From assembly GCA_010094025.1 (NCBI GenBank), contig ML991772.1, positions 434,001 through 498,000 on the forward strand: 64,000 bases of DNA, given 5' to 3'. The notes beneath the pieces were generated by a model. It had not been told where the DNA came from. It ran no database searches and saw only the letters and a program-made list of their open reading frames with translations. Shown here one piece after another: positions 14,972 through 58,091 of the stretch. Source of the DNA: Viridothelium virens. Lineage: Eukaryota > Ascomycota > Dothideomycetes > Trypetheliales > Trypetheliaceae. The translations under genes and the position numbers were made by a program. Each line of letters begins with the position of its first letter. Within the stretch, counting starts at the first letter, position 1.

Positions 14972-16880
14972 TTATTTCCTCCCACCCTGCCTTTCCCCCC
15001 CATCTCTCTCTCCTTCCTCCTCATCCTCCCCCTCCCCTTCCAACAAAATCTCATGCCCATTCCCCTCCCTGACCCACCCCCCGGCCACAAATCCCACAGT
15101 CGCCACGCCCGCCAAAACCCACCACGCAGCACCCACAACGCCCGCCTCCAACCCCCTCCCATACCCCCACCCGGCGACCAACGGCCCCACCGTCCTCGCG
15201 GCACTCGACACGCTCTGCCCAAGGCCATGCACCGTGCCCAGCACACTCGGATGCGGCGCGCAATTATTAACAAGGATAGCGGACGCCGGCAGCGCGAACG
15301 TCCTCGCGAGGACCTGCACGCACAGCACGGCGGCTATGCCAAGCCAGACGACGACGCCGGCAACGGGCGCCGGGGGCGGAGTCGACGACGGCAGCAGCGC
15401 GAGGAAGGGTGCGAGGACGTACGCGAGCGGGAAGAGCGCTAGCGACAGCCGGTAGGAGCGCTGCGTGCCAAGGTGGGTGGAGGCGCGTGGGTAGAGCAGG
15501 AGTTGCAGCGTTATGCCGATGGTGCCGAGGAGGGCGAGGGCGAGGCCGATGCGCGAGGGAGGGAGGCCTAGGCCGCCGGTGAAGCGGAGGGGTGGGGTGG
15601 GGTGGTAGGAGGAGGGCAGTTTGAGGGAGGAGGACGGGTGCGCGGCGTCGTAGCGGGGGGTGGACAGGAAGATGAACCATAGGTTGTTGAAGGTGCCGAC
15701 GTGGCTGGCGAGGAGGAAGTAGGCGAGGAAGGTGAGGCAGACGTTGCGCGTCCAGATGCGGCGGAAGGGGAGTTTTTGTCGGCGGCGTGGGGGAGGGGGT
15801 TTGCTTGGTTGAGAGCTGTTTTGGAGTTCGGTGTCGGGGGAAGTAGGACTGATAGGTTCGTCGCCTGCTAATGGTGTGTATTGATGTTGTCGTCTGCGGC
15901 ATGATAGAAGTCGGCCAAGGCTTCTTCCTAGCTTCAATCCCCAGTCGGATCGATTGCGACGAGCTTCGAGTGTCTGGGCAAAGTCAATTTGACTAGTCTC
16001 TAGTTCTCTCTTTGTGACCGACTACTTACTTCTTCGAGACCAAGTATGACACCCAGAGCTGAGCAGAGCAAAAATCCAGCGCTGACGATATTTGGTAGAG
16101 CATACGGGAACTTCGTCATCCATCTGACGCCCTGCGTGCCCCCGAGTATGGAGTCTGGACCGAATATGTGCGGATAACTCGCTATTGGATCTGCCAGCAG
16201 ACCGGAAAGGATAGGCTATCGGAGTTTAGTCTTCTGCAGCAAACTGGGTGGGCTGCACAAAACAATACTCACGCCAATGATGGACCCAATGTTGAAAGTC
16301 ATGGGTAGTAACAAGAAGGCTCTGGATTGGTATTTCTTTCCCTTGATAATCTCAGATATCATCTATGATTGTCAGTTCTCAGTCAAAATGTGTCTCTTCC
16401 AATTTGGGGACTTGCGGTTCTCATCACTCCCACATTCCCATTCAGAAAGCCCCCAAGACACCGGAAGAAGACTGCTTGCGCAAAACTCCCGGAGAAGCCG
16501 AATCCAAGGACGCTCATGCACGTTCCCAGCAATCCAACGACGATTACTCTTTTGCGACCTCCCCATGATGAGTCGCTGACTCTTCCCCACATCATGGCCG
16601 TCACGAATTGCATGGCCGTAAAGCTGGCCTGCATGGCACCCGCCTGGGCCGAGATGGTTGCATCTGGTGATGAAGGATTGAATGACTTCAGTTGGTAGAA
16701 CATATAAGCCTGGAGACCGGTTTGAGTAAGCGGTTCGGACAGACGAGCCAGAGTAAGTATGAGTAGCTGGTCCTTTCGTGGTAGTGACATCCATGTCACT
16801 GGTCTGTCTTTTTCTACATGATCACTATTGCCAAGGTTGGCGATCGCGGTGGTAGATTGATGGCCAATGTCCAATGTCAT
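14972..16880 (-). CDS. Major facilitator superfamily transporter
   Basis: Four exons from the ATG at 16880: 16880–16416, then 16362 to about 16270, about 16220 to 16047, and from about 15980 to the stop at 14972. The N-terminal half has the MFS signature between helices 2 and 3 (MMWGRVSDSSWGGRKR) and the helix 5 region GNVGVMRTMISEI. The second half has further hydrophobic helices (for example VCLTFLAYFLLASHVGTF). A long cytosolic loop, rich in Pro and Arg, lies between the two halves. The sequence most resembles the fungal tetracycline-resistance-like/Zrt-type MFS group; the substrate is unknown. The first intron (16363–16415, 53 nt) starts with GC rather than GT. The last 150 nt of coding sequence are extremely G-rich on the coding strand and encode an acidic tail. 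Confidence 0.88.
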
Positions 16881-17194
16881 TTAGCGCTACCCTGACGATG
16901 GTGTTGTTCCAGAAGACTCGGGGATTTTTGGACTGCCAAGAGAAGTCGATAGTGAAAGGGCATTGCCCCTCGTACCTGGCCATCATGATATGGAGTCATG
17001 CTCGTGGGCCTACCAATAATGTTTTTGCTCCAGCAATCTATCTACTAGGTGTACCGTGGGGTTTCCCGGCGGTTTTGGTGCCGAGTTTTCCGGCTGATGC
17101 TCGGTAGCGGGGCTCTCTCTCTCTCACACACATCATCGATGGGGTCTTCCTCGACATTTGCTCCCCTGGGTTCGAATTGATTGCGCCCAGCTTG

Positions 17195-17897
17195 TTACGC
17201 TTGACGTTGGACTCGCCCGCGACGTCCAGGTGGAGCAGGCTCATGGCGCTCCACTGGTGTTAGATACACCAGGAGCACCTTGATGAGCATGCCCACGGTC
17301 CCCCAGGAGAAGACGAACCACACGAGCTGCCTGACGAGCCATTCGCATGCCGCGAAGAGGCAGCCGGGGACCACGATGACGATGGCGAGGATGCCCTCAT
17401 GGAGCTGGCTCCACGAGGACATGGCGAAGTTCCCCACCAGGCCACAGACCATCGTCGCCAGGGACAACATGGCGGTGATAAAGGCGTCGGAGCCAGCGAC
17501 TGCCACACCTCGCCCGAAGACGATGTTGCCCTGGAGCCAGTGCCATGGGAGTATGACCACCCCCTTGACGAGATCGCCAAACCCAAGAGCTTGGACGATC
17601 AGGCCTACGAGCTGGTCTGATTTTCCGGCCTGGATCGCCATCGAGGCAACCCCCAGCATGTTCCCCTCGCGGCAGCGGACGTCCACCTCGTGGACTATGG
17701 CCGAGGGCAGGTAGCAGCTCGTGAAGTCGTCGTACCTGAGCCCGTAGGCCCAAGCTAGGAGAGAATAGAGCTAAGAGAGAACGATTAGCCTGGATTCTAA
17801 TGAGGGCCCCCCGATCTGGAAAGCTTACGAAAACCCCGATCTGCTCGTGGGCGATCAGGAGGATTGCTACCAGGGCAAGCAAGGCTGGCCACTTCAT
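17195..17897 (-). CDS. Small four-helix membrane protein, unknown function
   Basis: Two exons (17897–17829 and 17770–17195) with a 58-nt intron. About 214 residues. A hydrophobic N-terminus follows the ATG (MKWPALLALVAILLIAHEQ), which could be a signal anchor or first helix. At least three more hydrophobic segments follow, around AFITAMLSLATMVCGLVG, ILAIVIVVPGCLFAA and LVWFVFSWGTVGMLIKVLL. The tail is basic and polar. No family recognised. Third codon positions are almost all G or C from the very first codons, unlike the mixed usage at the 5' ends of neighbouring genes; this suggests high expression or a different origin. A trinucleotide repeat lies directly upstream in the leader. Confidence 0.72.
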
Positions 17898-17906
17898 AGT
17901 GGCACG

Positions 17907-17942
17907 ATGGTGATGATGGTGATGATGATGGTGTTGATGGTG
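17907..17942. repeat. (GAT/GGT)n trinucleotide repeat in a 5' leader
   Basis: An imperfect run of GAT and GGT triplets starts about 10 bp upstream of the ATG of the small membrane protein gene, so it should be transcribed as CAC/CAT triplets in its 5' leader. Confidence 0.7.
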
Positions 17943-18551: not shown

Positions 18552-19765
18552 AATCAACCAAAGTGAATGAAGAGGAGATCTGGTAACCGAGTCTCAAAGC
18601 TCCCAGACAACGAAAGTCCGTAACAAAGGAATTCCACTGATTGTCACCCCGTGATTTACGACAGTAAGCTGAAGTTAGTCTTCAATAAAATTCATCGAGA
18701 GCTCTAAGGGACCTACCCAATAGAAATCACAGTACTGGTCTCCCTCCACTTCTTGAACAGCACAACTATCCCTTGCTTTACTTAGCAGCAGTCAACACCT
18801 CTCCAGACAACGTTATGAGTGCTACTCGATTGGAGATCTGAATTTATCTTATAGAATGGATTTGATAGCTTACCCCATACAATACATCATGTGTTCCTCC
18901 AACAGGTGGAGAGTCAGCCCAACCCTGGTCTCTGGCTGATGAAGCTCACACCAAAGTCGCCTGGGGGTTGCTCTGTCGGATTTCGAGCTGGTGCAAGTCG
19001 TTAGCGAGAAATGAATCTATGAAGGACTGGTTGCTGTCACCGGTAGCGGCCAGCAGAGGAGAAGAATGCAGACACAGGTACTCCCCATTAGGGCAGTGAC
19101 CACGAAGACTCAATAAGATTCTTTCAAGCGGAAAGCCTTGTGCCTGCTCCGTTGACTTATTGTCTCACAGAATTATTGCTACCAACTTTGCACTGTGGAA
19201 AGGTGCCGAAAAGTCCTTTTGATGAACGTTTATTGAGGATGAGCCCGAGTGGTATTTCCGAATTTTCTCAAGCGCAAGGGCTTTGCCTATTCGTAGCGGA
19301 AGGTATCGAAATGCCCAGAAGATGTGGCGGTTCGATGCCAATCGATAAAAGGACTTTCTTCCATCAATATCGAGTTGAAATCAATCCCAGGCCCCAGAAT
19401 TCACAAGAAACCTGAAAACCTACCTCATTCCAAGATACCAACCTTCAAAACCTTTTACCAAAGAATGGTCAAGAAGCGTTACACGGATCGTGATAAGATA
19501 TTTTATATTCTCTGGGTATCATACAGCCATCCACAACCCTCTACATCTTCCACCTGTGTCATACGCAAAGCGTGCCCATTCACGCCTGCGTGAGATCCTT
19601 TTCCCCATCCAATAGGGTCCAGATCCAATATGTGATGATTAACGCCGATATTCAGCGCCAGTATTCCACATGCCTTTCATTCATTACGTCTTCATCACCT
19701 TCCCAAAGTCCCATCGTCATCATTACATCTCTCCACCTCCCCAATCCCCTATACAGAAAAGAAAA

Positions 19766-21771
19766 TCACATCCCACCTCGTCCACCGTACGGCGCCATCC
19801 CTTGTCCCTGTCCCTGACCCGGCCCCAACCGTCTCCCCACCGCCCCCGCCGTCGCGGACCTCAACGGCATCGGCCCCGGCCCCGGCGATCCACCGCCATA
19901 GTCCTCCTCGTACGCGGCAGGCAGCGTGGCAGACCGCTGCGGCGGCTGCGGACTGAAGTAATCGGCTGGTGGCGCCGGCTGGCGATAGTCGCGGCGCGGC
20001 ATCTGCGGCTGGGCGAGGATAGGCACGCTATTGTTCGACAGGGGCGTTGGAGCGGCGGACCGGCTCGGGTTGTACGGCATATAGCTACGGTCGGCGGGGC
20101 TCTGGATCATCGTGTTGCTGCCGCCGCCGCTGGCGGGCGTCTGGGGGCTCATTTCGTAGGCGTTGCTGAAGTTGGTGTTTTGGCGCTGGGGGGCGCTGCC
20201 ATAGGGGCGGGTGAAGCTGTCTTGGGTGTTTGTGCGCGTGGGAGGGCCGTAGGGGCGTCCCATGCTGTCTTGGGTGTTTTGTCGCGATAGGGGACCGCCG
20301 CCGGGTCGGTAGCCGTTGCTGTGGTAGGAGGGTGCTGGGGTGGTGGGTGAGGGACGGCTCATCTGCGTGGCGCTCGACATGTTGCGGTTCATTGGTGGAC
20401 GGCCGTAGGGAAGAGGTTTACGGATGGGTTCTGACATGCCCATGCCGCCGGCGTCGGATAAAAGAGGGGCATCTGAATCGAAGCTTGTGGTCGAAGAATT
20501 GGTGTTCATTCTTGCAAACATTGGAGCCGGCGCGTCTTCCTCGATACCTGGTAATGTCGGTTGTCGGGTCAAAGCTGGCTGATCCGAAGCGTTGCGGGTT
20601 GGAGGTCGAGAAGTGTAAGGAGGTAGAGTTGACTGGCTTGTTGATCTTGAAAGCACTGAGTCCGCATATTTATCTTCCTTGGAGTCCTCCAACGTAGGCA
20701 ATGTCGGTTGTCTCTGCGCTGTTGGCCGTATACCCTTCTTCATCGCCTCGCGGTCTTCCTTGAGCTGTTGTTTCCTCTCCTTCCTTTCTTGATCTTCGAT
20801 GGCCTTTCTCACCTTGACACTGACGACCCGACTGACACGTTGATTGATCTTTCGGCGACAGTAGATTGAGAGTCTTCCATCGCTTGATGGAATGTAATGC
20901 CAAAGGAAGAAGAGATAGAAAAGTAGCGCAAATAATAAGGATAGAGCAGAAAGGAACCAGATCACAAAGGTGAACAGCATACTGCCCAGAATTGCAGCGG
21001 TTTCAGGCTGTGTATTAGCCAGGATTTTGATGTTGTCGAAGAATTGCCCGACTGGTGAGCCTGCAGCATGTTGTCCTGCGGGAAGTAAATCTGCCTTAGA
21101 CACAGAGAAAAGCGTCATGGCATTGACGAATTGACGTGGTGTTTCTGCAAGGAGCACGCGTATTGCACCTGAATCTCTCGTTAGCATGTAAGAGACGAAT
21201 TTCAAGGAAACAGAACTGCTACCCACCTTTGAAGGAAAAATAAACAAATAGTGCAAGGTAATCGACTCCTTTTTTGCTCTTGGTCAATTCAGCGAATACC
21301 AGGAACCTCCTCCAACCTTTGCCGCTCCCTGGGCGCATGCTTTGCAGTACAACTGCAAGAGGATCCAGGTAGCTCTCTGCGACTCCGCCTCTGCGAATCA
21401 CCCGGATCGCGCGAACATATTCGAAGCCAAGAAGGACCCAAGAAAGCATAATGCAGACGGCAAAGATCCATCTGGAAATGGCGAAGGGTATAGCCGGTTT
21501 GACCTGACTGGACCAGCGATCGAAAGCGAGGAGATTGACTGCAGTGAAGGTGTCAAGGGCATAGACAGCAACAGAGACAATGGCAAGAAACCATAGCCAA
21601 CCGTAGGAGAATCGAGTGATGCAAGATCTGGACTTAAAATCATCAAGGGTCTGTAATATATGATCAGTATTCTGGTTTAAATGGAAAGAAGGAAGGTTCT
21701 CTTACAATGTAGTGCCATTTCTGTTCCTCTGCTATAATGCCCTTTTCCCGATCTCCACTGAGGCAACCCAT
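19766..21771 (-). CDS. KCH1/PRM6-like low-affinity potassium transporter
   Basis: Three exons from the ATG at 21771, with introns near 21650–21706 and 21185–21225. The N-terminus MGCLSG has Gly2 and Cys3, a likely myristoylation/palmitoylation site. The KCH family core follows: LDDFKSRSCITRFSYGW, helix FLAIVSVAVYALDTFTAVN, then RVIRRGGVAESYLDPLAV, GWRRFLVFAELTKSKKGVDY and FLWHYIPSSDGRL, with four or more membrane segments in all. After a basic coiled region the C-terminal ~270 residues are Pro/Gln/Asn-rich and disordered, with repeated SRQNTQDS-like units. In yeast Kch1 and Kch2 (Prm6) mediate K+ influx and activate calcium signalling in response to pheromone. The assignment rests on the whole N-terminal half matching this family; the long tail is a mould-type extension. 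Confidence 0.88.
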
Positions 21772-24358: not shown

Positions 24359-24412
24359 TCATTCTTGGACAAGAGCCATCAGACTGAAATTGAGATTCTG
24401 GCCATCTTCTCT

Positions 24413-25889: not shown

Positions 25890-28655
25890 TCACCACATCT
25901 CTTCCTCCTTGCTCACCGCCTTCTCCGGCGCCTGGCCAGCATGCCCCGTCGCGCCCTCGCCGCGACCATCCATCTGTCCCGGCTGCTTGCCCTGCTGCTG
26001 CTGCTGCCCAGGCTGCCCGGCAATCTGGATCTGCGGATGCATCTGCTGCACCTTCGCTAGGTAGCTGTACATGAAGTTACTCAGCAGTACCTGCGAGTAG
26101 AGCGCGCGCCGCGGATTCGCCAGCTTCATGTGCGCCATTCGATAGATGGCTCGCTCCTCGAGGATGCTGAAGCGGGTCCAGTTGTAGTCAATGTCGGGCT
26201 TGAGGATGCGCGCGGGAGGCGGGTCGGGAGAGAGGCCGCGGAGGGAGCTCGGCTTCTTGCTGTGTCCGTGGTCGTTGGACGGTGACTTTTTGCGCGCTCC
26301 GCCGAAGATGGAGGCGAGGAGACCGGAGTCCTTCTCTTTCTTGCCTTCGGCCCCGGCTTTGCGACTGCTGGCTTCCTTTTTGCGCTCTTCTTCTAGTCTG
26401 ATGCTCTCGCGGTCCAGGACGAGACTTTCGCGGCCCCGAGATGAGGTGCTGCCGCCGTCAATGCTCGTTTGTAGTAGGTCAAGTCGAGTGTTGTCGATCG
26501 CTTTCTGGTCTGGTCGAACCTGTTTCGATGTCTTGATGCGCTTGGTTGCAAGCTCTCGCTCGTCTCGCTCCTTTTGTTCCTTTTCACGCGCTTTTTCCTC
26601 TGACCCTGAGTTGAGCAAATTACCCCAGCTCCAGCTCGTCTTCCGAGATCCGTCAGAACCGTCTTTCTTGTCCTTCGATTTCTTGGGGTCTGGCTTTTGG
26701 TCCTCAAATGTAGGAATGAAGGAGAGAGAATCAGTACGAATACTGTGGCCAGGTAGTGGCGAAGGCTGCCCGGCCATGTCTTCGAGGGTTTGGTTTGGAG
26801 CTTTGGGTGGCGTAGAATGTGGTCGGGGTCCTGCTGCACTAGGTCTACCTACTGTTCCTGGGGTTTTACGTAAACCACGTGGAGGTATACCCTGTTGGGC
26901 CACAGACGGCGGCGGTGCATGCGAAGACTTGCGTTCTGGATGCCAAATGCTGTTCGCATGGCGTGGTCCATCTTGCGGGGGCGGCGTTTCAACAATTGAT
27001 GGGACATTTGGCGGTGGAGTGTATCCTGGTAATGGTGCTGTGGTTCGCCCGTTCGAGGCGATGCGGGAATGAAATGGTTTTGGTTGGACTGGTCGAGGTC
27101 TTTCGGATTCTGGTGGCTCTGTCATTGTCCTTTGTGGCGGCCGTTCCTCTGTTGGAGAAACTCGATGTTGTTGGGGGACCGATGGCACAGGTACAGTTTC
27201 TTCTTGTGCCTGCACTGGCCTAGCTTTTCGCGGCCGCGAGAAATTGTCCGGAGGCTCGGGTGAGCGTCGCGGAGGCATCGGCTCGGTTTGGACTCTATTG
27301 AGGAAAAATTCTTGTTCTTCCCTAGCTCCACCTATGGGAGAAGTTATTGGAGATTCCTCGCCGTCAGTCTCTGCCGATCTGCTAGCAACTCCGGCTGCAC
27401 GCTTGGAGAAGGGTACGCGCTCCCCCTTTCTAAGACTACCTCTCCGATACGTTGTTCTCGTGGACCGTTTCAAGCTTTGACTGGTGGGAGCAGGTGGTAA
27501 AATCGGCATGTCCTCACCAGCACCCAACTCGACACCAGAGTCATTCGACTTACGACTTGTATCTAGACTAAGGGTTCGCATCATTTTTGATGGATCGTCG
27601 ACCAAGGTCTCCAGTTGGGAAAGATTGGTCCCGCGTCCTGTTTGATTAGCACCTGACCGTCTTCGCTCCAGCCGTTCCGCTCCATCCTCGTAACCGTTGG
27701 GTGTATCAATTTGCCGCGAGAGCATCGACTTCTTCCTTCTTAATCCGCCTCCTGATCCTTGCCTTTCTATACCATCGGATGATAGCAAAGATTCTTCCCC
27801 ACCCGACCTTCGCCTTATCCTTTCAACTTTGTCTTCTATGAATGTTTTGAACTCCTTCGGAGCTAACTCCGGGTGTAGCCTGGCCGGGACCCAAAATAGT
27901 CTTGAAGCGTCATCCTCGTCGGCCGAATGCGATGGTGGTACAGTTGGCACATTGCCAAAGTTTGATGGAAAGGATGGCAGGTCAGGATCTGCGCCATTCA
28001 CATCCATGGACATGCGTCGAATGGCCTGAAGATTGCTCAACTCCTGCGCGACGGCTGCGGGGCTGGATTCATAGTCAATGTCGTTCAGAGGGAAAGGTTG
28101 CGTTGCGGTCTCTGAGGTCGATCGTTGTAGGTGAGGGGGTGAATTGCGCGCACTCTCGGAGCTAGCGGAAGGCCTTCTTCCCGGATCTGGGTTTGGGGAT
28201 CCATTGACAGGACTGTACTTCTTTTCGTTTGACATCGCTCTTTCCAACGGCGATTTGGGAGGGGACGCTCTTTTCGACTCGAAGTAGCTCGAGTTCTTCT
28301 CATAGCTCTCGCCAGGCGGTGTGCTCATGAAGCTTAGCGGCCGCGATTCGTGCTTGCTTCCGTATTCATTGTCTCCGTACATGTCTCCGATAGCCTCGGT
28401 GACGTGATGGTTATCGTCACTTATGGATATTTGAGGCGAATGACCTCGACGGCCGTGGAAGGTCCGGTCCAGCTCTTGCGGTCGTGATGAGGTCTGAAAA
28501 AGAGAACATAGGCGTTAGCAGAGGATTCTGTGAAGATGCAGTGCTCTAAGCACACAAGTCCAAGGTGCTTCCGTCGCAAGCGATGGGGAAGCTCGACGGA
28601 AGATTAATTGAGCGTTGTTGCATCCACTGAGGTTGCAAGGTCAACCCACCTGCAT
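25890..28655 (-). CDS. Zds1/Zds2 homologue, PP2A-Cdc55 regulator
   Basis: Exon 1 holds only ATG CAG (28655–28650); a 156-nt intron (28494–28649) ends at TTTTTCAG. The second exon then opens with TSSRPQELDRTFHGRRGHSP and runs to the stop at 25890, giving about 870 residues. The conserved N-terminal block is LFWVPARLHPELAPKEFKTF, residues about 200–230. The Zds C-terminal domain lies around residues 760–815: DYNWTRFSILEERAIYRMAH, then NPRRALYSQVLLSNFMYSYL. In yeast this domain binds the PP2A regulatory subunit Cdc55 and restrains the phosphatase, affecting mitotic entry and exit, polarity and stress output. Between the two blocks the protein is Ser/Pro/Arg-rich and disordered. The tail is Gln/Gly-rich. 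Third positions turn from C-rich to G-rich at about 26,150. Confidence 0.9.
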
Positions 28656-39157: not shown

Positions 39158-40813
39158 ATGGCAACGGCGGACCTCCCTTCGCGGCAGGGAACCCTGAAAA
39201 GCACAACAACAATGAGAAGCAATGATGACGATGATGCAATCCCGGACGAAGACGCAAGTGAGGTCAGCTAAACCCCGACAAATTCCTGTGTCCGACCTTC
39301 ATACGTCTTGCTAGAACCTCCTACTTACTTCGAGATAGGTAACCAAACTTTTCAACGAGAGATTGCAAGCCTGGAAGCACGCGTGTGGGTACTTAGAGGA
39401 CTATATACAAGCTCAAGAGAAAATGCAGAATGCGCATGGGAAGGAATACGAGAAAGTTGTAAAGGTTAGGATTCATTCAGCTTGTCAAAATGATCGCGCC
39501 CTAACCCTGAGAATGCAGACTGTATCAAATCCTCTGAAGGAGAGTCACCATTTCGACCAAAACGTTGGTGGTGTAGCGGAGCTTTTTGAAAACCTTCGTG
39601 CTAATACGCAGGTACGAATTGATGAATCTACAGGAGAAGCGCCAACACTGATGACGTTTTTAAGGCCGTATCGAATTCACATCATGAGACAGCAAAGATA
39701 TTGAAGGGTTCTGTGCTTCCAATATTCACAAGATTACATGCAGAAATCAAGAACAAGAATAAGGAACTCACTAAAGGTGCTGGCAAGAGCAGCAAAGCCG
39801 TCGACAAAGCCCGAACGGTAACACAGAAGCATATTGAGTTACTAGGCCAGAACACGGCGTCGTTTGATTCCACTGGAGGAAAGACCGATGCTGCAAATGA
39901 TCCATATATCCTCCAGCGCGGTATCTATCACAGACTGAACAAGCAAATCCAAGAAGAGAATAACAACAAGAGAGACATGCTCTCGGTTCAGTCCGCCTTT
40001 TCATCCTTCGAAGCCCACGTCCTCAATACTATTCAACAAGGCCTTGTGCAACTTGTTCAAGTCCTCAATCAACAATCGGACAACCAAAAGACACTGTACA
40101 CTGACACTCTCACCACCGCCCAGCAGATCGCCCCCGACTTCGAATGGAACGGCTTCGTCCAACGCAACAACAACATCCTCATCGACCCCAACGCCCCAGA
40201 CCGCAACGTCCGATCCATCTCCTTCCCCAATCAAGACCACAAAGCCACGCAGCCCATGATCGCCGGGAGCCTCGAGCGCAAAGGCAAGATGCTCAAGAAA
40301 TACGAGACGGGCTACTACGTCGTGTCGCAATCCAAATTCCTGCACGAGTTCAAAACCGACGACGACTTCCAGCGCGACCCCGTCCCGGAAAATTCGCTCT
40401 ATCTCCCGGACTGCGCCGTCGGCGCCCTTGACGGCACCAAGTTCAACGTCAAGGGCAAGGACGTCAGCAAGGGCAAGCTCGGCAATAACTTCTCCATGAA
40501 TCACGAGCTGCAGTTCAAGGCGCACACCGCGGCGGATGCTGCGAAGTGGTGGGAGATCATCAGGCGCTGTGCGGGGCAGCTGACGGAGGAGAGGCCCGAT
40601 GTTAGCGAGCCTAATTCGCCGGTGGATGGGGGGAAGAGGGTCGGGTCGGGCCTGAGCCAGGTGGAGCAACCGTCTCGGACGGGGACGATGGAGACGCAGG
40701 CGAGTGCGGGTGCGACTGGGGAGTCTATGGAGGCGAGGGAGGCGAGGGAGGCTGCAGAGGATAGGCAAGCGGCGGTGTCTGGTGCTGGTACGAATGCGGG
40801 GCAGCAGGTCTGA
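39158..40813 (+). CDS. Slm1/Slm2-type PH-domain protein, TORC2 and PI(4,5)P2 effector
   Basis: Four exons: 39158–39262, 39339–39464, 39519–39611 and 39665–40813. The joins are supported by the continuous family sequence LFENLRANTQ then AVSNSHHETAKILKGSVLP. The N-terminal half is a predicted F-BAR-like coiled domain (EIKNKNKELTKGAGKSSKAV, TQKHIELLGQNTASFDSTGG). The PH domain follows at roughly residues 290–405, from GSLERKGKMLKKYETGYYVV to AADAAKWWEIIRRC. The tail is Glu/Ala/Ser-rich. Yeast Slm proteins sit at eisosomes, bind PI(4,5)P2 and carry Ypk kinases to TORC2. Total about 490 residues, shorter than yeast Slm1. Third positions are C-rich from about 40,050 and G-rich from about 40,560. 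Confidence 0.87.
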
Positions 40814-41306
40814 GTCTGGGTTCGAAGTGGGTTCAATTGCCAATTGAGCGCTTGAGTCGGTTGGATGTTTGGGGGACCTAACGTCGTATGGCATGCGTTA
40901 CGAGCGGCTCCGTCGAATTGTGATCTTACTCCGTTTTTGCTAATTGTGTAGTCTGATATTTTGTACGAGCTTGAAGCATGTATTCTTCTTAAGAGAAGAC
41001 GGTGATCACATCTGCTGTGAATCTCTACATTGGGTGATAGACTGTCTTGTTCCGTCAACCCCTGCAGAAGGATCCTGTACAATCCCTGGTTGATATTCTA
41101 GGCAACGCAATTCTTCAAACACTCGTTGGTCAATTGACTGCTGCGCCGCGGTGCTACTTCGAAGATCAATCAGGCAGCAGATTTATGCTACACAATAGCG
41201 AGCTACACCAAAGATCCCCTCATTCTATTTATTATTAGGGAATACCCGCCCCTCTTTTCCTTCAGCTGCTCCACCATCTTGTTCTGACTCCGTCACTGCT
41301 ACAAAG
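40814..41306. other. Intergenic region
   Basis: Short spacer containing the 3' flank of the Slm1-type gene and the promoter of the DUF4419 gene. Nothing else seen. Confidence 0.5.
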
Positions 41307-42716
41307 ATGAAGAACTGTTTCGGAAGGATTTTCAAGCGCTCTGGCGATGTAAAGCACAATGGCGTTGCCAACGAGAAGCCGCAGTCCAAAGATGGCCAGG
41401 GAAGCTTGAGCTCTAGCTCGAGCATGGAAACCTCACGGGGAGATGGCATTAGTGTTCCAAAATCAGATGAAAATATACCACACGTTACAAGCATCAGCGT
41501 CCCAAAATCACATGAAAATATCCCGCATATTACAATTCACCCAGCTAAACATGCAGCTACAAAATGGTACCAAAAAGGTGTCTCAACTGCGGACGAACTA
41601 TTCCATGGTGCGGCGCCTGAGAAGCATCCTGAGAGCCAGAAAATACTTCAGGGAACGTTTCAAGGATTCGATTTTGACCAGAACACCATTTGCGCGTCCA
41701 CGAATGGTTTAGTCCGCAGTGCCATCTACGCTTACGGGAGGCACTATCATCTCACACTACGACCTGATGACGTTTGGTTTGCAATCCTGACCCAAGTTGG
41801 CTTCTACATCAACAAGCACGCCGAAGAGCTGCGAAATCATTTCGTGGAACACGAAGGAAAGAAAAAGCTTGTAGTCGAACGCTATGGTACCATCGAGACT
41901 GTCGATATCGGAGAAATGTCTGTTGAGATGTCGAATCTCATCCAAGCCAACGTCAAGGATCCTGATCTGCAGAAATGGATTATGCCAAATTTTAGCACGA
42001 CAAAAGAAGAGGACATTGTGGTCGCATCAGTACTAATGATGGGCGCAATGCAGAAATATTTTGCGTACTTTTATGCATGCTGTTGTGGAATTCCATCAGT
42101 AACACTGCTGGGCACAAGGGAGGACTGGCTTGAGATGTTCTGCAGACTTAAAAAGCTTAAGGAGCTTGGAGAAGAGCCGACAGAATTTTACGCCGTCTTG
42201 AAACCAATTCTGTCGTTTTTTGTGCGTTCTTTCGATGAACCAGACAGTCCTCAGGTCATCGACTTCTGGCAGAAAATTGCAGAAGAGGACGGCGGAAGTG
42301 GAAACACTTACCTGTCCGGCTGGATCACTGCCTTTTGCTTCTGGGACGCTGATGGCAACCGTATGATGAGAAACCTGAATCAAACAGAAGACATCAGTAT
42401 GATTCAAGTCGATGACACTCTCAACTTCGACTTAGATATTGCACTCAAAGGGAGGATCGACACTGACGTCGTGCCAGCGGGTTTCGCAGTGGTGCCAGCA
42501 ACGGTCAACGATAATGGGGAGGAATACAAGACCAAGTTGATCGCAGGCTCCATAGGGATCCAGGTGACGAGTAGTGGACAGAAATTGGATGAAGGGCCCA
42601 TCTATAGCCACCAGCAAGGTCAGCAGAGAAAGCCGACAGGTATTCCAGGTTTAGATTCTCTACAGCCTGTGACCGGATGGTGGATGTACAAATTGAAGCC
42701 GGAGCTTCAGGAGTAG
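41307..42716 (+). CDS. DUF4419 family protein
   Basis: A single uninterrupted exon of 469 codons. From about residue 85 it matches the DUF4419 fold by its block order: GLVRSAIYAYGRHYHLTLRP, DDVWFAILTQVGFYIN, HAEELRNHFV, a middle region with FSTTKEEDIVVASVLMMGAM and LLGTREDWLEM, then GNTYLSGWITAFCFWD and near the end GWWMYKLKPEL. The biochemical role of the family is unknown. The N-terminus is lysine- and serine-rich and holds an 18-residue tandem duplication (about residues 48–83: ISVPKSDENIPHVT then ISVPKSHENIPHIT). No signal peptide or membrane segment. Codon use is mixed, without the 3' C-then-G switch seen in neighbours. Confidence 0.88.
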   Translation: MKNCFGRIFKRSGDVKHNGVANEKPQSKDGQGSLSSSSSMETSRGDGISVPKSDENIPHVTSISVPKSHENIPHITIHPAKHAATKWYQKGVSTADELFHGAAPEKHPESQKILQGTFQGFDFDQNTICASTNGLVRSAIYAYGRHYHLTLRPDDVWFAILTQVGFYINKHAEELRNHFVEHEGKKKLVVERYGTIETVDIGEMSVEMSNLIQANVKDPDLQKWIMPNFSTTKEEDIVVASVLMMGAMQKYFAYFYACCCGIPSVTLLGTREDWLEMFCRLKKLKELGEEPTEFYAVLKPILSFFVRSFDEPDSPQVIDFWQKIAEEDGGSGNTYLSGWITAFCFWDADGNRMMRNLNQTEDISMIQVDDTLNFDLDIALKGRIDTDVVPAGFAVVPATVNDNGEEYKTKLIAGSIGIQVTSSGQKLDEGPIYSHQQGQQRKPTGIPGLDSLQPVTGWWMYKLKPELQE

Positions 42717-44745: not shown

Positions 44746-44950
44746 CAATGGTCATGAAATTTTTTTGGTAACAGGCCAACATTGGTAACGAGCAATTCAT
44801 TTGTTGGCTTGGAGGGTCTTTGGGAATTGGTGTTCCGGTACGGCGAAGAGGGAAGTTGTAACAATGAGAGTCTCTATCAAGTCGCATCTCAAATGGCTTG
44901 CTTCGGTTTCGTCAAGTTTCCATACCACAACTTGTGTTAAATCATCATCA

Positions 44951-46136
44951 TTAGTCCTGAAATAACAATCCGGCAGCATGTTCCACATTCCCTTCTGTTA
45001 CATTCAACGCAGCCACAGCCTGTGGTCTGGAAAACCCCAAATCCTGCAACTGCCGCACCTTCTCATTCCCAAACGGCGACTCCGCCACCGGCCCAAACGC
45101 CCCCGGCGGCGTCAACGGCCACCCTCTCCCTGCTGCCCCCCCTGGTCTCTCCACCCCTCTCCCCGCCTCCACCATCCCCGCCGGAATCTCCGCCGTCACC
45201 GCCTCCCTCACCGTCCTCGCCCACTCCCACGGCGCCGCCCTCTGCCCCGGCATCGCATTAAAGTACTCCCAGCCCATCACGCCTCCAAAGCGGGGATAGC
45301 GCGCCCTCAGCACCCTCACCACATCCGCCAGGCCCTCATGCTCAACGTACCCCGCGCCATTCTCCGCGTTCGTCACCACGCCCAGCACAACCTTCTCGGC
45401 CGGCCACCCCGCCGCCACGATCGCATCGTAGGTGTCCGGCTTGCTCGCGTCTGCCCAGCCGCAGTAGAACTGCGTGTTGTACCATGCGATCTCGTGGCCT
45501 GCCAGCCGGTGCAGCTCGAAGTAGGAGAAGCCGGAGAGGTGCGGCAGGGAGGGGAGTAGGGCGGTGGCGACAGGGGCGAGGGTGATCAGGAAGGTGGGCC
45601 CGAAGTCGCTGCGTAGACGGTGGATCAGTCGGAGGGGGCAGCTGAGGGGGACGGCTTCTTCGATGTCGAGATCTAGCCCGGAGAGGGAGTAGCGCGTGAT
45701 GAGGCGTTTGAGTGGGAGGTAATAGGCTTCGAACTGATTTTAACATGGGCGACGGGTTAATTTGGTGAGATTAGAGTAAGGATTGGAGGGGAAGGAGGAG
45801 GAGAGTGGGCCGTACGCTGGCGTCGTCTCCGGCGAGACGCTCATAGCTGCCCTTGGCGGCGCCGCCGAGCATGCCGAGTACGCCAATGCCGGCGCCTTGG
45901 AGCCATCGGACCTCGCCCCAGAGCTGTTTGTATTTTGGATGTTCGGGAGGGTCGTCATTCAAGTGGATGTTGCCTGGTCCTTCGTTCAGATGTATCGCGG
46001 CCACTATGACATGTGTGATCCCGGTGGAGTTCGTGAGAAGAGGTAAAAGAGAGATCTCGTTGCCATATTCATCGTGACGGGCCTGCGCGTAAGTAATAAC
46101 TCTCCCTGAATTGAGGGAGGGGAATGCAGGTGGCAT
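44951..46136 (-). CDS. GH18 hydrolase fused to a C-terminal UBA domain
   Basis: Two exons from the ATG at 46136, with the intron at roughly 45,747–45,808 (donor GTACGG, acceptor AATCAG). The N-terminus RVITYAQARHDEYGNEI starts a TIM barrel with no signal peptide. The GH18 catalytic signature is present as SGLDLDIEEAV (D-x-D-x-E, the final Glu being the acid/base). Later barrel blocks are ISLLPLLTNSTGITHVIVA, EIAWYNTQFYCGWAD and GGVMGWEYFNAMPG. After a Pro/Gly-rich linker the last ~40 residues form a ubiquitin-associated domain (VRQLQDLGFSRPQAVAALNV, then the third helix). GH18 enzymes cleave chitin or N-glycan cores. With no secretion signal and a ubiquitin-binding tail, a cytosolic role is likely, perhaps on misfolded glycoproteins (inference). 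Confidence 0.85.
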
Positions 46137-48134: not shown

Positions 48135-51100
48135 ATGGCAGCTGAAGCGCCTCAACCCGTGTTCTTCGCCAGCGACGCTGGTCCGCAACCCGCTGGTCCT
48201 CTACCTCCAGATGGTAGAAGCGTGAGCTGTATCTTAGACCCTGTGCCTGGACCTGGGCCTGCTGGTCCTAGGCCAGCCCGTGTCATGAACTCACAGATGA
48301 CGCCTCAGCATGCGATTAATGCATTCTGGAAGAAATTTAGCTTGGGCAGTCCTGCTAAAGTCTTTACCATTCTGCCCCAGAACCAAGCGTCTTCTCGCAA
48401 AGCCAGATCAACTCCTCAAGCCAAGACTGATACCAGGAAGGCAGAGCCTGTCTCGATCTCTTATGACAAAGCTGTGGCTGAGTGTCGAGCGAAAGTGGAC
48501 AAGATTAAGAGAGAATGCTATGCTCTGAATCAAAAGTATCGTGATCCCCATTTTAACATTGAGAGAGATTGGTGGGTCGATGGCCAATGTTTCAATGACT
48601 GTCTCATGGCACTCGCAGATGAGAAAATGGAGCTGGTCCCCTTGAGTGTGAAGAGGATCGAAGATATCTTTGACGATCCGGAGTTCTACATTGAAGGCGC
48701 TACTGCTAGTGATATACGACAGGGGAATGATGGAGACTGTTGGTTTCTGAGCGCACTCTCGACTGTCAGTTCTGTCAAGGATCTCATTCATCGTGTCTGT
48801 GTCGCGAGGGATGAAAAAGTTGGGGTGTACGGGTTTGTGTTCCACCGAGATGGCGAGTGGTTCTCAGAGATCATCGATGACAAATTGTTCCTCACGAAAC
48901 CAGACTTTGACGACCTGCCCCCAGAGCAACAGAACGAGTGGAATACGCAGTATCGGAAGGACCCTGAAGATGAATATCGAAAAGCGTTTCAGAGAGGATC
49001 TTCGGCTTTATACTTTGCGCAATGCAATGACCGTAACGAGACCTGGTTACCTTTGCTTGAAAAAGCATATGCTAAAGCACACGGTGACTACGCAGTCATT
49101 GATGGCGGGTAAGTTCAAAAATATCCATGCCAAGTCATGATCATAGAGACTAATTCGTACAGCTGGAGCGGAGAAGCAGTTGAAGACCTTACAGGAGGCG
49201 TGACGACCGAATTATATGCTACAGATATTATCGATAAGAATCGTTTCTGGAAGCAGGAGCTTCGACAGGTCAACAAAGAATTTCTGTTCAGCTGCGGTCT
49301 CCGAACCAGTAAGTACGAGACAAAGAAGGGACTGGTTTTCGGTCACGCCTATTCTGTCTTGGATGCTGTAGAACATACTCGCGATGGCAAACTCTACCGA
49401 CTCGTCAAATTGAGGAACCCCTGGGGCGATTCCGAGTGGAGCGGCGCGTGGTCAGACGGGTCCAAGGAATGGGATGGCTATTGGATGGAGACTTTGAAGC
49501 ATGAGTTCGGCGACGATGGAGTCTTCTGGATCTCGTATGAGGACCTCCTCAAGAACTTTCAGGACTTCGACCGCACCCGACTCTTTGACGACCGATGGAC
49601 GGTGACGCAGCAATGGACCAGTATATCTGTGCCATGGACAATCGATTACCTTGACACAAAATTCAAATTGGAAGTTGCCAGAGCTGGTCCAACAATCATT
49701 GTTCTATCTCAGCTCGACGACCGTTACTTCCGTGGCCTTGAGGGCCAGTACAAATTTAGACTACAATTCCGCCTTCATAAGGGTGACGAGCAAGACTATA
49801 CTATCCGCAGTCAGGCAAACTATAGCATGAGACGCTCAGTCTGTGCTGAAGTTGATTTGGAGCCTGGAATTTACCACATCGTCATCCGTATAGAAGCTAC
49901 AAGGTATCAAGAGAAGTCGTTGCCCGAAAGAGTTATCCCTGCCAAATGTGCGGATAGAAGAGATAAGCTCCTTGCAGTGGGGTTGAGCTATGATCTCGCC
50001 CATGCCAAGGGCCAGTTCAAAGAAAGTGAGGCCGAAAAGCGCAGGCGGGAAAAGAAGGAGACGAGAGCGGCGGTGAAAAGGCAATTCAGGAAAGACGCCG
50101 AGAGGGCTCGTCGTTATCGACTAACACAAAAGGTTAAGGAGAAGAGGAAGCAGATGAAATTTCAAGAGAAGCAGCGCCAATTCGAGGCAACGATGTACGC
50201 AACAGAGCTTCCCGCAGGGTCTCGCCAAGTAGATCCCAGACGCGAAAGGCAAGATTCCACTGAGCTACCTGCGGGGTCCCGTCCAGCAGACGAGAGACGC
50301 GATAGCCAGCTTTCCGCAGAGCTCTCGCCAGGGCTTCACGCAGCAGACGCTCAGAGCGACAGCCAAGTTTCCACCGAGCCAGAGACCGAAACCGGCGGCG
50401 AAGTTGACGAGTTGAAGATCAGACCTCAAGTCACTCGGTTACTTTCGAAGACCAAGTACGATGTCAGCCCCATACCAGAGCTGCCCGCCGGAAGCCTTCC
50501 TAAAACCCAGGCAACACCAGCAGCAGCACAAGAAGAACGACCATCAACCGCAGTGCCCGGATATACACAACAGCATCCCGAACAAGGGATAGATGCCCGA
50601 CGACCATCGTCACCACCGCCCCCACCACCACAAGGCGCACCTCCACCAGTCCCCCGATTCTTCCTCAACAACGCACTGCCACCCGCACGTCCGACTCTCG
50701 CCAACATTAGCGACGACGAAGCATCCTGGGACTCAGAGCTCGACTACCCGTCCTCGCTACGCTCTACATCTTCCTCCTCCTCCAACTCCTCCGCTGCCGG
50801 TGCCGCCGACAGCACCCACTCCGGCGGCGGCGACGGCGGCGACGACTTCGCCGACATGCCCGCAGTGCTGGACTACCTGCGATCTCCGCCGCCGCCTGTT
50901 CCGGTCGCGGCGCCTCAGGGCCAGGGTGGCGGCGGTGGTGGCGTACCGAAGAGGGATATCGCCGAGCTCCTGCAGGATCCGTGGAACGCGGTGTGTGTGG
51001 TGGGGCTGCGGGTGTTTAGTCAAGGGGCAGAGGGGGACGAAGAAGGGGTGCGGGTGGAGGTGGTGAAGCCGGGGAGGAATGCGGCGGAGAAGAGGGTGGA

Positions 51101-51167
51101 TGTGGATGATGCGGCGGCGGATGCGATTAGGGGGTTGGAGATTGGTGAGAGGGAAGGGAAGGAGTAG
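48135..51167 (+). CDS. Calpain-like cysteine protease (family C2)
   Basis: Two exons, 48135–49108 and 49163–51167, about 990 residues. The catalytic triad is present: Cys in GNDGDCWFLSALSTV, His in GLVFGHAYSVLDAV and Asn in KLRNPWGDSEW. The last two come after the intron and the first before it. The protease core covers about residues 150–490 and is followed by a domain III-like C2 fold (WTSISVPWTIDYLDTKF onward). Next is a highly basic coiled stretch of Lys/Arg/Glu (residues about 630–680), then ELPAGSR-type repeats (three full or near copies between 50,200 and 50,500), a Pro-rich run and an acidic C-terminus. Mould calpains of this type are intracellular Ca2+-linked proteases; this is not PalB, which has a MIT domain. 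Third positions turn C-rich near 50,580 and G-rich near 50,890. Confidence 0.88.
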
Positions 51168-51593
51168 TAAAAGGGGTTGTGGGTTGGTTGGACGGGAGGA
51201 TGGTTCTTTGGACGTTGGGCTTTCGGTGTATCTTGTCTCGTGCTCTCCTCTTTTTGGGTCAATTGGTCAAGCAGGCAGTCTCGTACTCTTCTCTGGTGGG
51301 ATCGGTCAGTGTTGGAAGAGAAAAGCGAAATTGTAGCAATAGTGCAGACGTGCTCCGCTTCCTGTATCAGACATCTTCGTCATTATCGTCGTCCCTGCTC
51401 CACAACACCAACCAGTTACGGCATCATGGGTATAAGCTCAAAGAAATGAGAAAATCGCTCTGTCCAATGTAATTCGCTTTCTTCTTGTGTTTCCCAGACC
51501 AGCAATCTTGCCTTTTCAATTGCCACTTGCCCTTTCCCTTTCTGCCATTCTTGTTCGAACCTTGTTCGTGGAGTCTCCGAGCACGGCCACTTC
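51168..51593. other. Convergent 3' flanks
   Basis: 3' flanks of the calpain gene (plus) and the small acidic protein gene (minus). Nothing else seen. Confidence 0.5.
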
Positions 51594-52247
51594 CTATTGA
51601 GCTGCATGCGCGAACTCCGGATCATCCTGCAGTGGCCCACTCGTCGCGCTCATGCCCTCAGCATGCTCTCTGGGTTTCGCCTCCGGCGGCATGCTTCCTA
51701 CGGCTTCCTGCCTCGCTGCCTCTCTCACTGCCGTGCCGGCCTCCTCCGGCTTCACTGGCTCCTCCGGCTTGGAGGCATCGCCTTGAGTCTCGGTGGCTGT
51801 AGCGGGGAGAGCGAAGTGAGTGGTGGCGACTCGGGAAGATGGAGTAGGATTTATATACCTGTCACGCCTGCGCCCTGTGTGGCATCGCCTTCATCCTTCT
51901 TCTCCCCCGTACCTGTCTCGCCGGCCTTTGCGCTGTCGGTGGGTTCCTCTTCGGCAGGCTGGGTTGTTGTGGTGGTCGGGGGTTTGGAAGCCTCTGTCTT
52001 GGAAGATTCGCCGGTGGATTTGAAGCTCTGGGAGTCTCTCGACTTTTTGTTCTTGCTGAAGAGACCTTTGATGCCCTTCTTGAGCCGATCGATGCCGTCT
52101 GGTGCTGCATTGGAGGTCGATGTTAGATTGAGATCCTCTCTCTATAGTCATCCGTGGTAGATAATAAGCCAACCAAGGAGCACTATCTTTTACAGGTGCT
52201 CCCAGAATTTTTTAGGAAAATCATGTGTACTCACGGACTCCTGGCAT
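51594..52247 (-). CDS. Small hydrophilic Ala/Glu/Pro-rich protein
   Basis: Three exons, all on the minus strand: ATG at 52247 (MPGV), a middle exon of about 250 nt ending at a GTATAT donor near 51,855, and a last exon beginning after CTACAG and ending in TAG at 51594. The middle exon encodes DRLKKGIKGLFSKNKKSRDS, a basic amphipathic stretch, then a Thr/Glu/Ala-rich run. The last exon encodes KPEEPVKPEEAGTAVREAA and ends DDPEFAHAAQ. No domain; low-complexity proteins starting in this way (…DPIMPGV then a Lys-rich helix) occur in many moulds, function unknown. Upstream in frame WITDPIMPGV looks coding, so the true start may lie in an earlier exon. The plus-strand frame across it is a shadow. 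Confidence 0.62.
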
Positions 52248-54823: not shown

Positions 54824-54993
54824 CACGTGATGTCGCGTCGGCGTGCCCCGGCAACCGCACCTCTAACACGTCAATAGGTACAGAGTAAGCTCTATAAATT
54901 GATCTGCCTATCCAGCGCACTCATGACACAACATGCTACCATTGAGGCCGACTTGGTTGATTTGACTATGGACGCCAAAATGTAGTCTCTACC
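54824..54993. promoter_or_regulatory. Compact divergent promoter of PTPA and the AT-hook/SANT gene
   Basis: Only 170 bp separate the two start codons, so regulatory elements must be shared. The sequence next to the PTPA start holds TCACGTGATG (54822–54831), an E-box-like CACGTG core often bound by bHLH factors. Confidence 0.5.
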
Positions 54994-57900
54994 ATGGCGT
55001 ATAAAAATCAAAAGGCCAAGAAGCGAGCGTCTCGAGCACAAGCATCCAAGAAAGATTCCAACAGCAGAGATGGCGGACAGTCGCCCATGCAGAACAGGCC
55101 TAAATGTAAGCAGCTCTTGATAAAAACCTGGGTAGTTTCCGAGGGTGTGACCTACCCGATCGGTCAGCCAGATTGCCTGTTCCACCATAAGGCAGGCCTA
55201 ATCGATCCGCTGCTGCCACCAGCAACGTCTCCGTAACCCGCTAATAGTAATCGGTAGCGCGAGACACAAGTGCCCAGCACCCAATTGACCAACAGCTACG
55301 CAGCGAGGACCGACAGCATGTTGGTACCAGAAGCTCTGCCGAACGCCTCAGTGCAGAGTCAACCGCCCTCCTCAACGCTGCCAGACAGAATAAGGGCAGT
55401 CGAAGTCCTGGACGTATTCATAAGAATGCGGACGACGTGCTTGAGATTCTGGGAAATGAAATGGGTTTACAGAAGCGCCTGCCGAATCCTCCGAGAACAG
55501 CCCTGAAAGGAAGCCAACCGGTGAATAGTGACGTCGCGGATCGCTCGGACCTGGGTCATGATCTAAGAGAAGATGATGGGACTGTCCGGAAAATTCATGC
55601 ATCGTTGCCTTCAACGGATCTCTTCCCCCCGATATCACCAAGGAAGCGGAAAAGAAATGAAATTCCCAACCAGGAACACCACGACAATCACGGAGACAGT
55701 GAGAAACCAGCTAAAAAGACGCGGCTTCAATCCACTGCTGAAAAGACAGATTCCTTGGCTTTGGATGCTTTTGCAAACACACACACGCCTGTACCCTTGG
55801 AAAAGGGGACGAGTAAGGGTACTAAGGCTAGACAGGACTGGACAAGAAATGGACCAAGACGGAGTGCACGGCTCCAAGAACAGCAATCAGCCCCAGTCGA
55901 GAGCAATGAATCTCCAAAGCCGAAAAGTCCCAAGAGCGGAGGACACGAGCAAAGGAGATCATCTATTGCGATTAACAAAGAGCAACAACAAGACAGGCCT
56001 ACACGTGGGGGAGGCGTCCAAAAAGGACCATCTAAAGAGGGTGAAATTGGCCAATCGCCTGCAACGAGCAAGAGGCGGGGCCGTCCGCCAAAGAACCAAT
56101 CCAGCAGGAATAGTGAAATTACGAAGGCCAAAGAGACCGGTCCTGAAGATGAGCCGCCAAATGCGGAGCTCTCTAACGCCAAGTCAAAAAAAAAGAGAGT
56201 AGACTCTAGCGCTGGGATATTCATGACTCCGAATGAGTCATCGTTAGGTGGTACTGAACAGAATGATGACCTTGGTAGAGGTAGTCCAGAGTCCGAAGGT
56301 TCTCAGGAGGGAAGCGAGTCACAAGTTGCCGACGGACAGGATCCGGAAAAGAACCGTGATGAGCAGACCAATACTGGCGGTGCTAATGAGAGCGGTATCT
56401 CCGAAGAGGAGGACTGTAATGACCTTGACCAGATGATACATGATGAAAGTCTTGAGGCCATGGATAATAGCAGGCTGTTTGGACAGGTGTCTCATTTGAA
56501 AGAATTACTAAGTGGATTAGGGAATATCGGTGTTTCCAAAAAAGGTGGGGATAGGCATAATCGTCGTCCTGAACTCAACGGCCTAAAAAAAGGACAAGTC
56601 AAGAATTTGTGTGTGGCATGCGAGGAGACCGTTGCTTTTATTCAAAACCCGTCGCTTAACCAAATTCATGACCAAGATGAGGACGGAAGTGGGAATACTA
56701 TCACGCGAACTACTCTACTAAACCGAAAGCTTGGCGATCTCGCCGAAGTCATTGATGATTTCAATATCACCGAGTCCAACGATGATTCCGGATTGGAGCC
56801 TGAACAGGTCATCCAAGGCACCTATCGGCACATCTTCCCAGCCCTCATCCGCGTCCTCACCGCCGCCAGCACAGCCTACGACACCCACTTTGGCGGCCTC
56901 CCCGAGTTACAGCGTTGGAAAGACGCCAACCAATGCCGCCTCCTCCAATCCCTCATCGCCCACCTCGACCTCATCCTCAACCTCTACGCCAACCTCGAAG
57001 CCATCACCCTCGCCCACCCCGACTGGAAACCCTCACCCGGCTCCTCCCCCCCGCTCCTCCAACCCATCAAGTCCATCTGCGCCGCCCTCAAACCCATCCA
57101 CGCCGCCTTCGTCCGCGCCTTCGACGCCCAACAGCACCGCCACGCCCAAGACGCCGAACACCGCGCCCGCCTCGCTGCCCGCGCGGCTGAGACAGACGGT
57201 GCTGCGGCGATCCGCGCTCGTCGCGAGCGCGAGCGTCAAGATGAGCACCTCGCGGAGATCTGGCGCGTCTTGCGCACTGTCCGCGCTCTCGTGGAGCCGT
57301 CTGCGGCAAGGAAGCCGCGGTTTGCGGTCCCGGCTGAGGAGGATGAGGAGGAGGAGGAGTGGGACTCTGATGTTAATGGCGGTGGTGGCTCTGCTGACAA
57401 CAACGACGATGATGGGGGCGGTGAGAGCGAGGTCGATGACGAAGACGATGATGACGAGGAAAACATGTACGATGGAGATGATGATGACGTTGTTTATGGT
57501 GAAAATGAGGATGCGGCGGTCGTATACGACGAGCATGGCGAGCAAGGAGAGCGCGTCTCCATTTTCGGGGCGTGGCTTCCTCCTCCTCCACCGAGCAATG
57601 GCGACGCTGCTGATGCTGATGCTGATGCTGATGCTGACTCTGGTGTTGACGTTGATGCTGACACCGGTGCTGATGCGAGCGCCGACGTGTCCGCGAGCGC
57701 GGCACAGCGACTACGACGCAGGCGGCAGGAGGCGCGGCGGCAGAGGATGAGAAGAGGCAGGGCCAGGGAAAGGAGGAGAGCGACAGGCGCCAACTGGACG
57801 CAGGAAGAGAAGTGGGCGCTACAACGAGCGCTGAAGGCGTATACGGCTCTGCCGGCAGGTGCGCCAGCGCGGCGGGGCGTGGGGAAGGAGGTCGCGACGT

Positions 57901-58091
57901 GGCCGTTCCAATATGTGTTCCGGCAGTGTTGCGGGTATCAGAAGGCGCTGCGGGAGAAGGATGCGTTGGAGATTGTGAAGGTTGCAGGGCGGTTTCGGGA
58001 ATTTAAGTTGAGGGAGGCGCAGAGGAGTGGGGAGGAGGTGGAGGCGTGGGTGAAGGAGATTCCGATGATTAAATGGAGGAAGGGGTTGTAA
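54994..58091 (+). CDS. AT-hook and SANT-like chromatin protein, unknown function
   Basis: Two exons, 54994–55105 and 55258–58091, about 980 residues, with a 152-nt intron. The spliced start is MAYKNQKAKKRASRAQ. After a conserved-looking segment (KNADDVLEILGNEMG) comes a long disordered basic part with an AT-hook, SKRRGRPPKNQ, near residue 300, and an acidic stretch. A helical domain covers about residues 500–700 (YRHIFPALIRVLTAASTAYD, LLQSLIAHLDLILNLYANLE). Next are Glu/Asp-rich runs, a (Asp-Ala)n tract, an Arg-rich run and a C-terminal SANT/Myb-like block starting ANWTQEEKWALQRALKAY and ending PMIKWRKGL. It is probably nuclear and DNA- or histone-binding; I do not recognise a named orthologue. 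Coding composition flips from C-rich to G-rich at about 57,175. Confidence 0.82.

Follow-up and report, generated by a model that had tools for sequence, protein, structure and literature searches.

A C-to-G strand-skew switch near the 3' ends of genes in the lichen-forming fungus Viridothelium virens

Why do genes in one stretch of fungal DNA change from C-rich to G-rich shortly before they end? The question was raised by a window of 64,000 nucleotides from Viridothelium virens, a lichen-forming Dothideomycete (contig ML991772.1; C2:434001-498000 of a 30.7-Mb, 175-contig genome). A preliminary description of this window had reported that third codon positions in nine genes become C-ending and then flip to G-ending before the stop. 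We examined the flip in these genes and in a 304-kb sample consisting of the window, C1:1-200000 and C10:100001-140000. Genes were modeled with a gene finder written for the analysis, which gave 79 confident predicted genes covering 47% of the sample. The flip is a real, strong, genome-wide feature of gene 3' ends.

RESULTS

The flip in nine named genes and across the sample

The third-position flip was present in all nine genes near the points first reported: at 15398 in the MFS gene, 19952 in KCH, 26127 in Zds1, 33981 in creC, 40498 in the Slm1-type gene, 45422 in GH18-UBA, 50879 in calpain, 51768 in the small acidic gene, and 57200 in AT-hook/SANT. Third positions were shuffled 300 times within each gene and the flip was re-chosen for every shuffle, which sets the smallest possible p value at 0.003. 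Each of the nine genes reached this minimum, and Fisher p values ranged from 1.7e-5 (small acidic) to 2.7e-25 (GH18). Six other genes had been said to lack the flip, and for five of them no significant third-position flip was found (gem1, p 0.19; arrestin, 0.44; CDK1, 0.17; PTPA, 0.59; atg13, 0.11). The sixth, DUF4419, does have a weak one, which covers its last 35 codons before the stop (window 42614-42716, p 0.007).

The sample was also scanned without reference to genes. The density of G minus C in a 400-bp arm to the left of each point was subtracted from that in the right arm, and a difference of at least 0.30 was counted as a strong switch. Seven of the nine named genes reached this value in the window; Zds1 (0.215) and the small acidic gene (0.24) were below it. 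At 0.30 the sample contained 34 C-to-G switches versus 26 G-to-C switches, 24 of the latter lying within 900 bp of a C-to-G switch and two being isolated. Block shuffles produced on average 0.3, 5.2, and 7.7 C-to-G switches with blocks of 30, 90, and 150 bp, respectively, and never more than 11 in 20 repeats. Shuffling of synonymous codons brought 2.3 genes to 0.30 compared with 19 of 77 observed, so protein composition can account for only a minor share. The stop-anchored average, named in the preliminary description as the place where the claim could fail, does change sign: mean skew over the 79 genes was -0.15 at -900, +0.30 at -100, and near 0 at +200. Flip strength was graded and did not fall into two classes. 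A faint version was seen on average even in genes without a strong switch. No shared motif was found at the 34 sites, where the top k-mers stayed within the maxima of half-wise shuffles.

Position within genes and relation to gene direction

Confident predicted genes contained 30 of the 34 C-to-G switches, distributed as 0, 3, 4, 12, and 11 over successive gene fifths, the median distance from flip to predicted stop being 352 bp. Of the remaining four, three were followed by an open-frame stop at 272-501 bp. In the 30 genes of at least 1.8 kb, nine passed a threshold of 0.35 in the 3' zone and one did so in the 5' zone; of nine genes longer than 3 kb, none passed it in the middle.

The constant order, always in the direction of transcription, had been offered as evidence of polarity. 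This argument does not hold. C-then-G is its own reverse complement and reads identically on both strands, so an equal order in plus- and minus-strand genes says nothing on polarity. What is informative is the constant sign (isolated G-to-C switches are nearly absent), the 3' location, and the G-rich half ending near the gene end. By its location and by the end of its G half the flip is genuinely linked to gene direction, and as a stop-anchored feature of a subset of genes it holds across the sample.

The ends of three genes (C1:192202, C10:38310, and creC) are either wrong or uncertain. Uncorrected ends were used for the switch and gene counts, the stop-anchored mean, the codon-position and first four-fold figures, the coordinates of the halves, and the intron and folding counts. 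For the analyses of the G-half end, the two-fold ratios, and the individual amino acids, C1:192202 and C10:38310 were re-ended. For the G-half end, creC was dropped and three peaks placed by open frame alone were included (C1:97240, C10:19537, and C1:156452); the peak C1:56243 was not assigned to a gene.

When genes were segmented in their own orientation, the middle setting gave G halves ending a median of 64 bp past the stop (interquartile range 5 to 175, n = 32) and C halves with a median length of about 460 bp; both vary with the segmentation setting, the medians ranging from -15 to 141 bp and from 300 to 489 bp, respectively. Over four settings the length of the G half tracked the distance from flip to stop (rho 0.41-0.83, slope 0.54-1.65), and that of the C half was unrelated to the stop (rho -0.16 to 0.29). 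At the 26 strongest peaks the skew was nearly mirror-symmetric over some ±450 bp and reached baseline by about 500-600 bp, and GC content was 0.67 at the flip versus about 0.49. Flip-centered averages carry an artificial edge at ±400 from the 400-bp arms, of which the stop-anchored profile is free. Flips recur every few kb.

The orientation of the downstream neighbor was not distinctive (15 tandem and 14 convergent for switch genes; 26 and 21 for the others). With regard to the idea of intron loss through cDNA, introns no longer than 110 bp were counted over the final 900 bp: the 30 switch genes had 9 and the 49 other genes had 22.

Sites affected and substitution signature

The flip had been described as a third-position effect, which proved too narrow: codon positions 1 and 2, introns, and the 3' untranslated region (3'UTR) carry the skew as well. 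Four predicted introns in C halves had 23 G and 114 C in 278 bases, compared with 735 G and 880 C in 3757 bases of 71 other introns. In the first 100 bp of the 3'UTR, G and C were 0.314 and 0.163 in 27 switch genes versus 0.245 and 0.207 in 49 others, all three doubtful gene ends being omitted. Because bases within one gene are not independent, the small p values for intron and 3'UTR skew are only indicative. From 250 to 450 bp past the stop, switch genes and others were alike in composition. The skew is thus not confined to coding sites, as an effect of codon usage would be; with the C-half introns and the 3'UTR both skewed, the process acts on DNA and not on codons. A cause in codons, tRNA, or mature mRNA is contradicted on the same grounds.

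The other part of the original claim, that protein sequence does not explain the flip, was borne out by four-fold sites, the synonymous shuffles, and the nine two-fold amino acids in the G half. Protein composition does shift across the flip, from rich in P, S, and T to rich in G, E, A, V, and R. At four-fold sites, C/G changed from 0.61/0.18 to 0.15/0.63 across the flip. Over 30 genes, four-fold sites in the gene body were 0.26 A, 0.28 C, 0.19 G, and 0.28 T; C rose to 0.59 in the C half with G unchanged, and the G half had 0.62 G and 0.16 C.

Two-fold codons of the same number of genes separate changes on the two strands. In the gene body they were strand-symmetric, with C/(C+T) of 0.49 in NNY and G/(A+G) of 0.50 in NNR codons. 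Going along the gene, the two ratios were 0.75 and 0.38 in the outer C half, 0.87 and 0.52 in the inner C half, 0.34 and 0.85 in the inner G half, and 0.26 and 0.81 in the outer G half. All nine two-fold amino acids shifted alike in the G half. In the C half the six pyrimidine-ending ones agreed, and the three purine-ending ones barely moved. The substitution signature was repeated with the stop as anchor in 27 genes, again omitting the doubtful ends. At free sites of the G half, G was raised at the expense of A, T, and C, and at sites restricted to C or T, T was raised over C. These ratios indicate that one strand gained changes ending in G. In the G half this is the sense strand; in the C half it is the antisense strand, to a less complete extent.

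GC-biased gene conversion, of which the GC3 (third-position GC) gradients of grasses are an example, is alike in producing a local GC peak inside genes. Being blind to strand, it would raise C/(C+T) and G/(A+G) together. In the G half the two ratios move in opposite directions, which contradicts plain GC-biased gene conversion, and it was rejected on this ground.

Boundaries and other switches in the window

The four named plus-strand genes have the C half on the left. In the Slm1-type gene it spans 39992-40504 and the G half 40505-40875, past the stop at 40813; in calpain the halves are 50467-50916 and 50917-51228, past the stop at 51167; and in AT-hook/SANT they are 56809-57180 and 57181-58274, past the stop at 58091, with the scan maximum at 57175. 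These boundaries are from segmentation. For creC the scan arms are given: C-rich at 33455-33854 (G 102, C 157 of 400) and G-rich at 33855-34254 (G 170, C 97 of 400). The creC gene probably extends via an intron beyond its predicted stop at 34329.

On the minus strand, segmentation placed the G half of the MFS gene, C-rich as read on the plus strand, at 14739-15371, past the stop at 14972 (scan maximum 15346), and its C half at 15372-15914. The corresponding halves of KCH are 19519-19915, past the stop at 19766 (scan maximum 19915), and 19916-20643. In GH18-UBA the G half, 44919-45460, ends near the stop at 44951 (scan maximum 45425), and the C half, 45461-45809, takes in most of a predicted intron at 45734-45815 (G 3, C 32 of 73 inner bases). 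Third positions were counted for the two minus-strand genes with weak scan switches. The last 80 codons of Zds1 (25890-26127) had 16 C and 50 G and the 130 codons upstream of its flip (26128-26517) had 68 C and 26 G; the last 59 codons of the small acidic gene (51594-51768) had 8 C and 32 G.

Both isolated G-to-C switches are in the window. One, at 8826 (window 8109-9300; -0.345, GC 0.60), lies upstream of a minus-strand DUF3295/GATA gene, and predicted R-loop stretches face each other there. The other, at 61091 (window 60600-61800; -0.36), is in a stretch without a confident gene. At the start codons of the 79 predicted genes, skew was about -0.19 in the preceding 100 bp and -0.13 to -0.15 in the first 200 bp, with no GC peak.

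Paralogues and relatives

In the MFS gene the flip is located 374 bp before the stop, and in the nearest two paralogues, with 56% and 45% identity, it is located 333 and 309 bp before it. These two paralogues lie elsewhere in the genome, and their flip-to-stop distance is nearly that of the gene in the window. Among more distant paralogues, two at 35% identity had no flip and one at 39% had a weaker flip (0.28) at 533 bp; a seventh match, the frame of which was not reliably read, was left out. By this comparison the flip would either be of long standing or have arisen anew at a comparable distance from where the gene ends. One DNA search for a mobile element gave a paralogue as the only other match, and no further mobile-element search was made.

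A protein-level proxy was applied to 360 listed homologues of three genes. For Slm1, the closest four relatives ranked 18, 12, 8, and 7 of 120, and Bogoriella ranked 49; close relatives of KCH and calpain were scattered in rank among the homologues listed. The Slm1-type protein matched a Viridothelium virens protein with 100% identity across 97% of the query. For the calpain part (49113-51167), a match with 100% identity spanned 89% of the query; it was to a protein from a lichen assembly labeled Trypethelium eluteriae. One of the two labels may be wrong, or both may denote the same fungus.

DISCUSSION

The pattern looks like the scar of long exposure and damage of one strand, the cause of which is not proven. 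Biased gene conversion in its plain form, one of the causes named in the preliminary description, is contradicted by the two-fold codons. Transcription-linked asymmetry or R-loops, also named there, are the reading preferred here, though unproven. Our tentative explanation, to which we give somewhat less than an even chance, is that the exposed and damaged strand is the one displaced in R-loops, with an antisense R-loop fired by a sense R-loop where the gene ends. The mRNA would form an R-loop across the final few hundred bases, as far as the gene end, and an antisense transcript fired from its upstream edge would form a second R-loop extending ~460 bp upstream within the gene. Where the strands are displaced, C would be deaminated and read as T. 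Lost bases would be bypassed by a C-inserting polymerase, so that any lost base would become G and a lost G would be restored. A Rev1-like polymerase inserts C opposite a lost base. Damage plus such bypass could give both the skew and the rise in GC without biased gene conversion.

The element expected of an R-loop, a G excess over hundreds of bases with G clusters, is present at the flips. Of 53 predicted R-loop-forming stretches, 43 were within 650 bp of a flip, a zone of about 15% of the sequence, and 42 of these 43 point away from it; a divergent pair occurred at 17 of 34 flips. The enrichment is partly circular because the zones are G-rich. The genome has members of the Sen1, RNase H2, RNase H-type, UDG, and Rev1 families, which is compatible with the proposal and decides nothing.

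Known R-loop systems offer partial parallels. Ginno and colleagues (2012, 2013) reportedly described GC skew together with R-loops in humans, at CpG-island promoters and at the 3' ends of genes. The human and fungal cases share a G-rich displaced strand, a local rise in GC, and a form at 3' ends. The fungal flip differs in lying inside the coding sequence, in having a C-rich partner zone upstream, and in being missing at ordinary promoters. Antisense transcription from R-loops, termination regions included, is described for mammalian cells in the part of PMC6868509 consulted. Such transcription, shown in mammalian cells, would give two divergent displaced strands at gene ends, as proposed here for the fungus.

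Several observations weigh against divergent R-loops. The main difficulty is that ordinary promoters lack a G skew downstream of the start, where the first 300 bp are slightly C-rich; a transcription start by itself does not suffice. Nor is the mirror exact: G/(A+G) in the inner C half is 0.52 and not about 0.34. Deamination of C at first positions predicts a rise of the leucine codon TTG, and TTG/(TTG+CTG) is flat (0.54 in the G half versus 0.53 in the body), which speaks against simple deamination. Four-fold T drops from 0.28 to 0.13 in the G half, and deamination thus cannot be the sole process. Two predicted introns in G halves have no clear skew (G 41, C 35); their gene ends are doubtful, and at least one lies past the likely stop.

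A rival explanation, which we consider unlikely though worth weighing, is that flips are meiotic break hotspots. Breaks near the flip would be mended from the homologue, and strand-directed heteroduplex repair would favor C to one side and G to the other, leaving the GC peak where the break occurs. The peak in GC at the flip fits this, and the mirrored skew has a plausible resection scale. Human hotspots, in the portion of PMC7615360 consulted, show a mirror-image change of spectrum around the center, mutation being asymmetric between strands in the flanks but not in the central 100 bp. The mirrored change and the weaker asymmetry at the center are shared by the flips. In Zymoseptoria, of the same class, 1435 of 2578 hotspots are in exons according to the part of PMC5844332 seen. 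A Spo11-type family in the genome is compatible and decides nothing. The sign is the first objection: as we read the same portion of PMC7615360, the resected, 3'-ended single strand loses C, which predicts G-then-C, and the plus strand here is C-rich to the left of the flip. On this reading, resection starting at a flip would expose the opposite strand to the one that the fungal pattern calls for. The fungal zones are also shorter, with one side ending at the gene end, a boundary that hotspots leave unexplained. The fall of C/(C+T) in the G half argues against strand-blind conversion, and GC-biased conversion in Zymoseptoria is extremely weak or absent in the same part of PMC5844332.

A comparably doubtful candidate is some other process that exposes one strand, such as the processing of breaks on one side only, or damage by topoisomerase, where genes end. 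The substitution signature requires strand exposure and leaves its cause unnamed, which sequence cannot supply, and the promoters without the signature are in keeping with such a process. A two-sided break at gene ends would, however, add a C-rich zone downstream, where switch genes and others were alike.

It is improbable that replication starts at the flips, with damage to the exposed lagging-strand template leaving the leading strand G- and T-rich on both sides. The C-to-G sign and the preference for G and T over C and A do match the leading strand of most bacteria, as given in the part of PMC10030826 available. An origin should carry skew over kilobases on both sides, but the fungal skew is gone within about 500 bp, flips are a few kb apart, and one side stops at the gene end. 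Replication forks run much further than about 500 bp. Very improbable is selection on codons, protein, or mRNA structure, which could draw on the change in protein composition and on folding energies slightly below half-wise shuffles (mean z -0.58, standard deviation 1.1, n = 30) and is opposed by the skewed C-half introns and 3'UTR, by synonymous shuffles that fail to reproduce the flip, and by the agreement of two-fold amino acids in the G half. Fold-back of the two halves in mRNA was rejected on that z value.

The pattern was not reported in the literature searched, which comprised titles and the beginnings of abstracts and had most subscription papers outside it, so this is weak evidence of novelty. 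A sharp strand skew is usually taken as the mark of a replication origin or a CpG-island promoter; here an equally sharp one lies at fungal gene ends, in coding and non-coding sequence. The two-fold-codon test tells the flip apart from GC-biased gene conversion, which is strand-blind, and is applicable to any genome. We consider the chances evenly balanced that the flip is a genome-wide, long-lived mutation landmark at gene 3' ends, in which divergent zones with opposite strands exposed and driven to G are strong enough to rewrite protein tails in between a quarter and two fifths of genes, with no need for GC-biased conversion or codon selection. If one strand is indeed lastingly exposed there, sequence alone would map long-term sites of R-loops and antisense transcription, and a mutational force would be shaping the C termini of proteins.

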